In this document: in pieces, positions 24,717-63,169 of the stretch
Layout: each line of letters begins with the position of its first letter
Position numbering within the stretch: position 1 is the stretch's first letter
Assembly (NCBI RefSeq): GCF_000699445.3
Contig: NC_067198.1
Span: 29,701,536-29,765,535, forward strand
From: Schistosoma haematobium
Lineage: Eukaryota; Platyhelminthes; Trematoda; Strigeidida; Schistosomatidae
Direction: 5' to 3'
DNA length: 64,000 bases
Position numbers and translations under genes: made by a program
Notes under the pieces: model-generated
What the model saw: the letters and a program-made list of their open reading frames with translations, nothing else
Database searches by the model: none
What the model was told of the DNA's origin: nothing

Positions 24717-24733
24717 ACCTAAGAAGTTTTGAT

Positions 24734-25056
24734 TGAGATCATGAACCGATTGATGTTAGACCACCGTTGGAAACCTGGAAGCACTGGACGGCCGTTTCGT
24801 CCTATTGTGGGACTACTCAGCAGTGCGCATTCACGATCCCACTTGCGGGATTCGAACCCAGGGCCTTCGGTCTCGCGAGCGAACGCTTAACCTACTGGAC
24901 CACTGAGCCGGCATCGAATGGTGATAGTGTCTAACATCAACCAATCCAAGAAGTTGCGCGACCATCTTCCATTGTACTGAGGCAGATACCTGTCTCTACC
25001 CGACATGGATTAGCTCCATTGGTCACGGCTTCTCACTAGAACTCCGAGAATTCCCT
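24734..25056 (-). mobile_element. Family-2 SINE, full length, left arm of the inverted dimer
   Basis: Read on the minus strand it has a tRNA-like head with A-box GGCTCAGTGGTCCAGTAGG and B-box GGTTCGAATCC, typical internal Pol III promoter elements, then the hammerhead and a TCAATCGGTTCATGATCTCA tail. About 140 bp of non-tRNA sequence precede the A-box on the 5' side. Compared with the right arm it has one change in the GCGAGCG stretch and one near the tail. Confidence 0.9.
24781..24826 (-). ncRNA. Hammerhead ribozyme copy, core mutation G8 to U
   Basis: Stem I GCACTG/CAGTGC, stem II GTCC/GGAC with loop CACAATA, GAAA and the CGGCCGTC stem III plus cleavage triplet are all present. The core box reads CTGAGTA instead of CTGAGGA, which changes the invariant G8. 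Loss of activity is expected from known hammerhead mutagenesis. Confidence 0.8.
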
Positions 25057-25152
25057 GACGTCAATCGGTTTATGATCTGAATCAAAGACCTAATAATCTC
25101 CACAACCCCTATACTAGTAATTAATATGTGCTCACTAGTGAACAGCTTCCTA
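25057..25152. other. Spacer of the inverted dimer, contains a third SINE tail
   Basis: The first 60 bases repeat, in plus orientation, the SINE 3' end (TCAATCGGTTTATGATCTGA) and then the CCTAATAATCTCCACAA trailer that also follows the right arm at 25483-25500. The remaining 36 bases are unassigned. Confidence 0.75.
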
Positions 25153-25475
25153 AGGGAATTCTCGGAGTTCTAGTGAGAAGCCGTGACCAATGGAGCTAAT
25201 CCATGTCGGGTAGAGACAGGTATCTGCCTCAGTACAATGGAAGATGGTCGCGCAACTTCTTGGATTGGTTGATGTTAGACACTATCACCATTCGATGCCG
25301 GCTCAGTGGTCCAGTAGGTTAAGCGTTCGCGCGCGAGACCGAAGGCCCTGGGTTCGAATCCCGCAAGTGGGATCGTGAATGCGCACTGCTGAGTAGTCCC
25401 ACAATAGGACGAAACGGCCGTCCAGTGCTTCCAGGTTTCCAGCGGTGGTCTAACATCAATCGGTTCATGATCTCA
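25153..25475 (+). mobile_element. Family-2 SINE, full length, right arm of the inverted dimer
   Basis: Plus-strand copy with A-box (GGCTCAGTGGTCCAGTAGG), B-box (GGTTCGAATCC), hammerhead and tail. After the tail comes a trailer with CCTAATAATCTCCACAA before the duplication at 25514, probably part of the family's 3' end, which may be recognised by a partner LINE. Confidence 0.9.
25383..25428 (+). ncRNA. Hammerhead ribozyme copy, core mutation G8 to U
   Basis: Same structure and same CTGAGTA core defect as the copy in the left arm. The shared defect shows that both arms descend from one source copy or have been homogenised. Confidence 0.8.
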
Positions 25476-25525
25476 AACGAAAACCTAATAATCTCCACAA
25501 TCTATATACCAGTACCTAAGAAGTT

Positions 25526-36904: not shown

Positions 36905-37080
36905 CAAGACTCAGTAGCTAAGTGGATAACGCGATGGCGTTTGGAGCAAATGGTACTGGTTTCGAGTCCCAGAGTGAACATTAACTCTGGGATGCAGGTA
37001 CATCTATCTGACGATTCCAAAAGAGAACGAAACCCACGTCCTGGATTCCACTGCTAGCCACCATCCATCTTTGTTTAATA
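36905..37080 (+). mobile_element. Sm-alpha SINE, plus copy of an inverted pair
   Basis: Contains A-box TAGCTAAGTGGATAACG, B-box GGTTTCGAGTCCC and the hammerhead region at 37002-37046 (core CTGACGA and GAAA intact, stem II GTCC/GGAC reduced to TTCC/GAAC). The GCTAGCCACCATCCATC tail follows. The 3'-most part of the element is absent. Confidence 0.85.
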
Positions 37081-41094: not shown

Positions 41095-41420
41095 GCAGAT
41101 GGATATCAGGACTCAATAGCTAAGTGGATAACGCGATAGCGTTTGAAGCGAACGGTATTGGGTTCGAGTACCAGAATGGACATCAACTCTGAGATGAAGA
41201 TACATCCAGCCGATGAGTCCCAAATAGGACGAAACGCACGTCCTGGATTCCACAGCTAGCCACTATCCATCTTTGCTTAAAAAGCTTGTGACTTAACGCT
41301 TTATCGAGGCGTCCGCACAGGATGCACATATACCACATATGCCAACATGATACTGATCGATTGCAGTCCTAAATAACAATGGGAAGATACAAGTAAAACA
41401 ACACCAAGTGAATTTAAAGG
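41095..41420 (+). mobile_element. Sm-alpha SINE, best preserved copy in the window
   Basis: Has A-box TAGCTAAGTGGATAACG, B-box GGTTCGAGTACC, the hammerhead at 41204-41248, the GCTAGCCACTATCCATC block and a long tail that includes ACAAGTAAAACAACACCAAG. The tail contains about 60 extra bases (around 41330-41390) that the 36.6-kb copy lacks. Confidence 0.88.
41204..41248 (+). ncRNA. Sm-alpha hammerhead, single core change U4 to C
   Basis: Stem I ATCCAG/CTGGAT is perfect, stem II GTCC/GGAC with loop CAAATA is perfect, and GAAA and the GTC cleavage triplet are intact. The only defect is CCGATGA in place of CTGATGA. Activity is expected to be reduced, not necessarily absent. Confidence 0.85.
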
Positions 41421-59149: not shown

Positions 59150-59871
59150 TATGAAATATTAAAACACAATTATATGAACGAAGAATATTCTCTTCGAAAA
59201 TTTCTCATTAGGGTACTACAATTATATATCTAAATTAATAATTCATAAAATTGGCCAGATTTAAGACAGAGTACATCATTTAATTCCGTCAGATTGTGAA
59301 TCTTGCAAACGGCTGCTATTCGGATCGAAAAGCTAGAGCTTCGCACCCAAAAGAAATATGTTCAACCGCTCCTTTTACCATGGCCAACTTCGGGCCCAAC
59401 TAGTTACTAATCTATTTTATAGTATGGTGACGTAATTTGATTATTGTTTATTTATACACTTTAAACATATCTCATCCACACATCTTACTATTGACATTAT
59501 TATTAATACACTTGCTAACCTTTTGCGGAAATTTATTTAGCATCCACCCCTATCTACTATATCTGACCTAACTCATATCACTCTGCATATTACGTAATCT
59601 TCGATTTTTTAATTACATTATCCTCTCTCTCTCATCCCATGTTGACCATATTTATTCTGAACATTTATCTTATAATTTCATTTCACTTATAACAATTCAT
59701 ATTAGTCAGCCCCAACATTAACGATTTGATTTGATACGACAAACAATTCTTGATTCACATGTTAAACCTGGCCAATTTTATGGATTATTAATTTGGATAT
59801 GATAATTGTAGAACCTGATAAGAAATTCATCGAAAAGAATATTCTTCGTTCATATAATTATGTATGAAATA
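59150..59871. mobile_element. 0.7-kb element with about 100-bp terminal inverted repeats
   Basis: 59165-59264 and 59762-59862 are inverted copies, roughly 85-90% alike by eye (CAATTATATGAACGAAGAAT at the outer ends, AAATTGGCCAG at the inner ends). The 9-bp direct repeat TATGAAATA at 59150-59158 and 59863-59871 could be its target duplication. The interior has no transposase frame, so it would be non-autonomous. A 9-bp duplication would suit a Mutator-like family, but the family is not identified. Confidence 0.65.
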
Positions 59872-60917
59872 AAATCACTACCAGTCAAGTAAGAGCTTAT
59901 GGCGAACTGTCATCTGCTTTTGCAACCTCAAGTGGTGTCCGTCAAGGCCGTCCACTTTCCCCATTTTTGTTTAACTTCATCATAGACCTATTGATGGAAA
60001 TAACATTCTCGTCGACGGAATTCTCGGGTATTGATCTCCTTCCAGGAGGTTCACTTATCGACTTAGAATACTCAGATGACATAGTCCTGTTTGGTGAAGA
60101 CACTGGTAAAATGCAGAGTCTTCTGGTAGCACTAAACAACAATGCCAGAATGTTTGGAATGCGCTTCTCTCCCTCGAAATGCAAGTTGTTGCTTCAGGGC
60201 TGGTCTGCGTCAACACCTGAACTAAGGATAGGGAGTGAAGTAGTCGAACGCGTTGACAACTTCACTTATCTTGGAAGTCTGATCAGCCCTAATGGGTTGG
60301 TACCGGACGAAATCTCATCACGGATTCGAAAAGCTCGTTTGGCTTTTGCCAACTTACGTCACCTATGGCGAAGGCGAGATATCCGTCTATCAATAAAAGG
60401 ACGAGTATACTGCACGGCAGTCCGTTCTGTTTTACTTTACGGCAGCGAAACATGGCCTATAAGAGTAGAAGACACTCGTAAGCTACTAGTATTTGACCAC
60501 AGATGCCTTAGAAATATTGTTGGCGTCTGCTGGGATCACCGGATAAGTAATAGTGTTGTTCGACACAGGGTATTAGGGAATGATGGTAAATCAGTTGATG
60601 AGGTTGTGAATCTTCATCAACTGAGATGGTTGGGCCACGTGTTACGTATGCCCAAACACCGATTACCACGACGCGCAATGCTATCCGGTGTTGGGGATGG
60701 TTGGAAGAAAATCAGGGGCGGCCAAACCAAAACGTGGCATCAGTGCTTGGATTCACTAACTTCTAGTCTGAGCCATGTTGGTAGATGCAGACTACTTGGT
60801 TGGGGTCCGCGTGACTATCGTAACCCATGGTTAGAGACTCTTGGTGACATGGCTCAGAATCGGTCACAATGTCGTCGGTGTATACACTCTCTATCTTCCC
60901 TTAAACTAAGAGATTAA
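59872..60917 (+). pseudogene. LINE reverse transcriptase fragment, active-site motif YSDD retained
   Basis: Open without interruption from TTSQVRAYGELSSAFATSSG through GVRQGRPLSPFLFNFIIDLL, the active-site block LEYSDDIVLFGED (YADD in most relatives), NFTYLGSLISPNGLV, VLLYGSETWPIR, LRWLGHVLRMPKHRLPRR and LLGWGPRDYRNPWL to a stop at 60915-60917. Endonuclease and RT fingers are missing, so it cannot work alone, but the frame and both Asp residues are intact over nearly 350 codons, which suggests a young insertion. Confidence 0.9.
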
Positions 60918-62671: not shown

Positions 62672-63169
62672 ACTTAGATAGATCAGAAGGGGTTTTGTGG
62701 AGATTGTAGCAATTTCAACAGTTGAGATCATGAGTCAATTGAAGTTAGACCATTATGGAAAACCTGGATGCACTGGACGGTCGTTCCGTCTTATTGTGGG
62801 GCTACTCAGGAGTGCGTATCCACGATCCTACCTCCCGAAATTCAAACTCAGGACCTATCAGTCTCGCGCGCGAGCGCTTAACCTCTAGAACACTGAGCTG
62901 TCCGACATCCACTGGTGTCAATGTCTAACTTCAACTAATCCACGAAATTGAGTGACACATCCATCATTGTCTTCAGTGAGTTCCCATCTCACAACAGACC
63001 TGGTTGAACTCCACTGATCACTGCTTCTCACTAGGACTCCAGGATCGTGGATGCGCACTGCTGAGGAGTCCCATACTAGGACGAAACGGCCATCCATTGC
63101 TTCCAGGTTTTCCATGGTGGTCTAGCTTCAATTGACTCATGATCTCAACTGTTGAACTTAGATAGATCA
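62672..63169. mobile_element. Inverted SINE pair inside one 14-bp target-site duplication
   Basis: ACTTAGATAGATCA occurs at 62672-62685 and 63156-63169. Inside are a full-length family-2 copy on the minus strand (62686-63041) and a 5'-truncated plus-strand copy (63042-63155) that starts at the ribozyme. Tails point outward, as in the dimer at 24.7-25.5 kb, and the ribozyme-to-tail region is present in both orientations. The single duplication argues for one insertion event. Confidence 0.82.
63055..63100 (+). ncRNA. Hammerhead ribozyme, family-2 type, near intact
   Basis: Stem I GCACTG against CATTGC (one mismatch), core CTGAGGA, stem II GTCC/GGAC with loop CATACTA, GAAA, and a triplet ATC, which obeys the NUH rule. 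Stem III has one C-A mismatch. Every invariant core base is present. Confidence 0.75.

Follow-up and report, generated by a model that had tools for sequence, protein, structure and literature searches.

A head-to-head hammerhead SINE pair of Schistosoma haematobium, probably inserted by Penelope-like machinery

The locus at positions 24717-25525 of the stretch analysed here (the window, 64,000 nt of Schistosoma haematobium contig NC_067198.1) probably represents a non-autonomous, tRNA-like hammerhead SINE inserted by machinery of the Penelope-like element (PLE) type, with both target strands priming reverse transcription at two start sites. Two SINE copies stand head-to-head inside one target site duplication, one ending in a long and the other in a short tail, and the PLEs of the same genome carry the same signature. 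The initial annotation had already proposed that both target strands primed, an idea that was right in substance; it had not considered that the pair structure belongs to the Penelope-like insertion pattern, here borne by a SINE. This link between a SINE and PLE-type insertion appears to be new, as does the count of one long and one short end in pairs: neither a SINE with a Penelope-style signature nor such a one-of-each count was found in the open-licence literature. For a purified PLE, extension of both strands from two start sites has been reported before (PMC11167929).

The two arms, antisense in copy A (24727-25056, minus strand, with its 5' end at about 25056) and sense in copy B (25153-25482), are 330 nt each, lie 96 nt apart and differ at 4 of 330 sites, two of them within the first 323, in agreement with the near-identical 5'-to-5' arms originally reported. 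Both tails point outward, and ACCTAAGAAGTT at 24717-24728 and 25514-25525 forms the single 12-bp duplication that had been described around the pair; a shared word of at least 12 nt is found at such ends in 0.08% of mismatched flank pairings (n = 3,540). In the comparison of outer ends, whose pairing criteria were slightly unlike those of the 60-locus pair count given below, 1-2 nt at each outer end are compatible with both target and element, and the limits of the duplication could shift by as much. Internal duplications around each arm had been named as the sign that would speak against a single event, and the repeat search of the locus gave no further direct-repeat family around single arms among those listed.

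The equal-armed symmetry that was first described does not hold for the pair as a whole. Copy B is a full SINE unit on the plus strand (25153-25513) whose outward end, at the right, carries some 30 nt of additional 3' sequence (25485-25513), while copy A ends at the left in a short tail; by eye, AAGTT at the left target end extends the family consensus past the end of A. Between the arms and ahead of B lies a 65-nt direct copy of the B tail (25055-25119, plus strand), a 5'-truncated fragment in partial tandem that is 83% identical to 25450-25514, followed by a plus-strand spacer of 33 nt (25120-25152) with the near-palindrome TGCTCACTAGTGAACA, which belongs to the family unit. Each arm contains a type I hammerhead (RF00163, 46.8 bits in both; 24781-24826 on the minus strand in A and 25383-25428 on the plus strand in B) with the core CTGAGTA, where 45 of the 60 main copies of the family sample described below have CTGAGGA, a difference that we take to concern core position G8. 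Copy B also includes GGTTCGAATCC (25351-25361, plus strand), which we recognise by its motif as a tRNA-like B-box; ARAGORN reported zero tRNAs within the window. There is no long reading frame within 24717-25525, so that the unit is devoid of reverse transcriptase and GIY-YIG endonuclease.

Two queries were used to survey the family in the genome. Arm A gave 9,242 candidates and the spacer 1,085; the best 40 of each were scored, 39 loci being taken from the former and 20 further loci from the latter, which with the window makes a sample of 60 loci (a first sample of 40, window included, and a second of 20). As they come from the best 40 scored places, the sampled copies are biased to long ones that resemble the window's. 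A consensus built from the 39 loci of the first list has the unit order tail fragment, spacer, SINE, tail, with the partial tandem visible as identity between its positions 1-65 and 396-460. These 39 loci diverge from the consensus by about 3-4%, evenly across all parts. In the window, the single-copy parts (25055-25152 and 25477-25514) differ at 19 of 138 positions versus 12 of 322 in the arms (p = 2e-4), and the best identity to its spacer is at most 91% among the scored places (best 40 of 1,085). Such uneven divergence possibly results from arm-to-arm repair or from a diverged source.

The layout, first regarded as exceptional, is in fact common: 34 of the 60 loci have a head-to-head partner at the 5' end of the main copy, and none has a tail-to-tail one. 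Partners range from 34 to 411 nt, that of the window (334 nt) ranking third longest. The search of the assembly for outward-tailed SINE pairs within one duplication, suggested in the initial annotation, thus yielded many: a direct repeat of at least 10 bp flanks 22 of the 34 pairs, versus 3 of 26 unpaired copies (p = 5e-5) and 0.73% of the 3,540 mismatched flank pairings. The target sites are 82.5% AT across 25 duplications, and their flanks 67.0%. An empty-site query for the window locus across the genome matched its own flanks only.

Both arms of a pair share a common origin. Of the 21 pairs that overlap sufficiently, 20 have a partner that is nearer to its mate than to other main copies on average (mean distance 0.042 to the mate versus 0.079 to other main copies). 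Element and target overlap, in the 22 pairs with a duplication, by 2.6 nt at the long end and 4.6 nt at the short end, compared with 1.0 and 1.9 in simulated blunt insertions. The central junctions of the 34 pairs have a median microhomology of 3, versus 0 in simulation. Excess overlap at ends and junction is what two annealed primers plus a microhomology join would leave and, together with the single duplication and the closeness of partners to their own mates, it bears out the earlier proposal of one event primed from both target strands. Four of 33 inverted partners (L073 omitted) have their 5' ends at U303-304 in family coordinates, displaced by one base to the 3' side of the tRNA-like A58 (about 25357 in the window), as if reverse transcription had stopped there; a methylated base halting the enzyme is one idea for this cluster, which was noticed post hoc and for which the chance of any such cluster is 0.0097.

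Both halves had also been said to end in the same 3' sequence, and here the description has to be corrected, since one tail is long and the other short. With the long/short cut placed at U446, a value chosen after viewing the first 40 loci, 31 of the 34 SINE pairs have mixed ends. A strict count, from which L073, L074, L075 and L091 are dropped because one of their ends does not reach U422, gives mixed ends in 29 of 30 pairs with readable ends, and the tail of the sole mismatch, L043, aligns poorly. The first sample contributes 24 strict pairs, of which 14 are long-short, 9 short-long, 1 long-long and 0 short-short (Fisher p = 8e-6). All six strict pairs of the second sample combine a short main copy with a long partner; they agree with the rule yet cannot test the tail association, as they do not vary. 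Main copies are long-ended at 27 of 40 loci in the first sample and at 3 of 20 in the second.

PLEs in this genome carry the signature too. Relaxing the GIY-YIG search produced 138 mostly weak matches; the single match of a strict search was read as what is presumably the host SLX1 gene rather than a PLE. In L069 and L055, reading frames contain motifs that we assign to reverse transcriptase and endonuclease, and the 3' regions have, by eye, a hammerhead-like core. Where two endonuclease matches lie no more than 5 kb apart, they are arranged head-to-head in nine cases, in tandem in three and tail-to-tail in none, and one tail-to-tail neighbour lies 9.8 kb away. Of the nine head-to-head PLE pairs, eight combine a long with a short end and seven carry a 13-14-bp duplication, the mismatched flank-pairing control covering SINE pairs only. 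When only same-subfamily pairs are counted, all eight have mixed ends and seven of them the duplication. The exception in tails joins two subfamilies and is without a duplication, as is one of the mixed pairs.

Head-to-head inverted copies within one duplication are thus shared by the SINE pair and PLEs (the Perere-10 group in schistosomes), and the SINE unit likewise has the partial tandem, the optional tail on one end and the type I hammerhead. It differs from PLEs in being without reverse transcriptase or endonuclease and in the sequence and length of its tail, which at about 30 nt is unlike the tails of about 66 nt in the two PLE subfamilies compared. At L031, a SINE copy adjoins 17 nt that match perfectly, in reversed orientation, the end of the PLE long tail, as if it had inserted beside a PLE end. 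The purified PLE of Anolis cleaves the two target strands and extends each of them, starting at two adjacent internal sites that bound an optional tail, and hammerhead mutants of this element still insert (PMC11167929). For rotifer PLEs, one report describes adjacent inverted pLTRs with one duplication and a tail on one inverted pLTR (PMC3846280), and PLEs are named, in a study of metazoan retrozymes, as strong candidates for moving them (PMC7229834).

Our reading of the locus can be put as a series of steps. An AT-rich target would be cut on both strands about 12 bp apart, and each free 3' end would anneal by a few bases to the SINE RNA and prime reverse transcription. Synthesis from one strand would begin at the outer site and yield the long tail of B; from the other it would begin at an A-rich site some 30 nt farther inside and yield the short tail of A. 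Both cDNAs, truncated at their 5' ends, would then be joined head-to-head through a short microhomology, leaving a single duplication outside the pair. The extra tail fragment before B would be accounted for if B was read from a partial-tandem RNA. We infer the PLE enzyme as the actor and the order of the steps, and one or two template RNAs may have served; the assignment of the enzyme is putative, the SINE tail being unlike the PLE tails compared.

Several observations stand against PLE-type insertion of the SINE from both strands. Besides the tail difference (about 30 versus about 66 nt), 26 of the 60 copies have no partner, only 3 of them have a duplication of at least 10 bp, and with both samples pooled 14 end in a long and 12 in a short tail. 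A duplication of at least 10 bp is absent from 12 of the 34 pairs, the six strict pairs of the second sample do not vary, another locus shares the junction of the window, and the in vitro work on the Anolis PLE detected no strand difference in the start site (PMC11167929).

The shared junction also concerns whether the window dimer descends from an older head-to-head dimer, whose read-through RNA was reverse transcribed and inserted whole. We regard this as unlikely. L091 (C1:53740400-53742000) has the same junction as the window and shares with it the variants U17 T and U340 T, which are absent from the other main copies sampled (at least two exclusive variants are shared by 6 of 1,770 locus pairs), and it is flanked by a separate 11-12-bp duplication, bears a long tail at the right and is cut at U380 on the left. 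When a query spanning the junction was aligned, L091 was the only place besides the window to match it over its full length at 91%, ungapped, and nine further places did so at 77-86%, most of these alignments being gapped (best 40 of 1,901). On the strength of these shared features, the window dimer or its parent has probably been copied whole at least once, and the window dimer may itself be such a copy. In the window pair, however, the left end coincides with the short start site commonly used and overlaps the target, like the ends of primary pairs, whereas L091 appears truncated at its 5' end; had a read-through RNA been the source, its start would have had to fall precisely on that site. 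We therefore take the window locus as a primary event and not as a copy of an older dimer. Elsewhere the junctions differ, three locus pairs agreeing in position within 3 nt against 0.86 expected. The earlier claim that the dimer was mobilised as one unit is accordingly borne out in part by L091 and does not extend to the family, for all but one of the other 32 sampled pairs are without a junction twin of this kind and look formed at insertion.

Two-strand priming could also be the work of LINE-type machinery (CR1 or RTE) instead of PLEs, which we consider rather improbable. Reading frames that we assign as LINE-like are plentiful in the window, and the SINE tail has no match in the PLE tails compared; yet it is the PLEs of this genome that show head-to-head pairing, mixed ends and 13-14-bp duplications, in a comparison that covered PLEs alone. 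Twin priming (5' inversion) by LINEs resembles the SINE pair in its two primers, inversion and single duplication. There, the two halves are different parts of one RNA, whereas both SINE copies hold the 3' region.

Very unlikely is a fold-back, in which the cDNA of B would have snapped back and copied its own arm. Self-priming of this kind is proposed for rotifer PLEs in PMC3846280, and the arms, with just 2 differences in 323 nt, and the near-palindrome in the spacer would suit it. The end of A, however, is not a copy of the B tail: the long tail is absent there, and the terminal sequence is A's own. Differing ends are likewise seen in 29 of the 30 strict pairs, short ends overlap the target above chance, and junction positions are scattered, not pinned to a palindrome. 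That two independent insertions came to abut by chance is highly improbable: the family is numerous (9,242 candidates), but there is one outer duplication, the arms differ at 2 of 323 sites when the nearest other sampled main copy is 5.1% away, and the 34 pairs are head-to-head without exception. An assembly artefact of a single copy is scarcely credible, for although palindromes are difficult to assemble and the locus is known from the assembly alone, pairs occur at scattered loci with locus-specific junctions and shared duplications, and the window's arms bear different tails.

In its features the unit resembles the schistosome SMalpha/Sjalpha hammerhead SINE-like retroposons, which are short and dispersed and have a tRNA-like B box and a type I hammerhead; the likeness drawn here concerns these features. 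Metazoan non-LTR retrozymes are also small non-autonomous retroelements with type I hammerheads (PMC7229834). Retrozymes are characterised by circular RNA made by hammerhead cleavage and by long tandems; the SINE unit, analysed here as DNA, differs from them in having a tRNA-like part. A pattern scan of viral contigs gave only short tRNA-like matches in 8 contigs, and in plasmids zero matches.

Other features of the window deserve mention. A second head-to-head pair at 62672-63169 lies within a 14-bp duplication, ACTTAGATAGATCA (62672-62685 and 63156-63169), and consists of an antisense full copy, its long tail outward at the left, joined to a sense hammerhead-tail piece with a short tail. Good alignments cross its junction in 38 of the best 40 genome places, and among six aligned copies inspected by eye the long tail is at the left in four and at the right in two; this composite may be an amplified unit. 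Hammerheads at 37002-37046 and 41204-41248 belong to a clearly different tRNA-like SINE subfamily, the 41204 copy being the strongest of the window (65.2 bits). An Rfam match to mir-3492 (60258-60335, minus strand, 59 bits) falls within a plus-strand reverse-transcriptase-like frame (59868-60917); given this position, the microRNA family may derive from a retrotransposon.

PLEs form a third class of eukaryotic retroelements, and the signature described here bears on how their integration is completed, a step that is called open in PMC11167929 and PMC3846280. It implies that an insertion draws on both strands of the target and that the start sites are, nearly always, used once each. We tentatively suggest, as a broader and still doubtful generalisation, that each start site is used once, one per strand, the simplest cause being that the two subunits of a dimeric enzyme work on a common template RNA and keep one another from the same site, that hammerhead SINEs use this machinery, and that some of the resulting palindromes are recopied as units. 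The SINE pairs provide structural evidence for the idea that PLEs move hammerhead retroelements, which is in print as a likelihood only (PMC7229834). Thousands of short copies in one genome make the rules of insertion countable and, if each start site is indeed used once, those of schistosomes would constitute a natural record of PLE integration.
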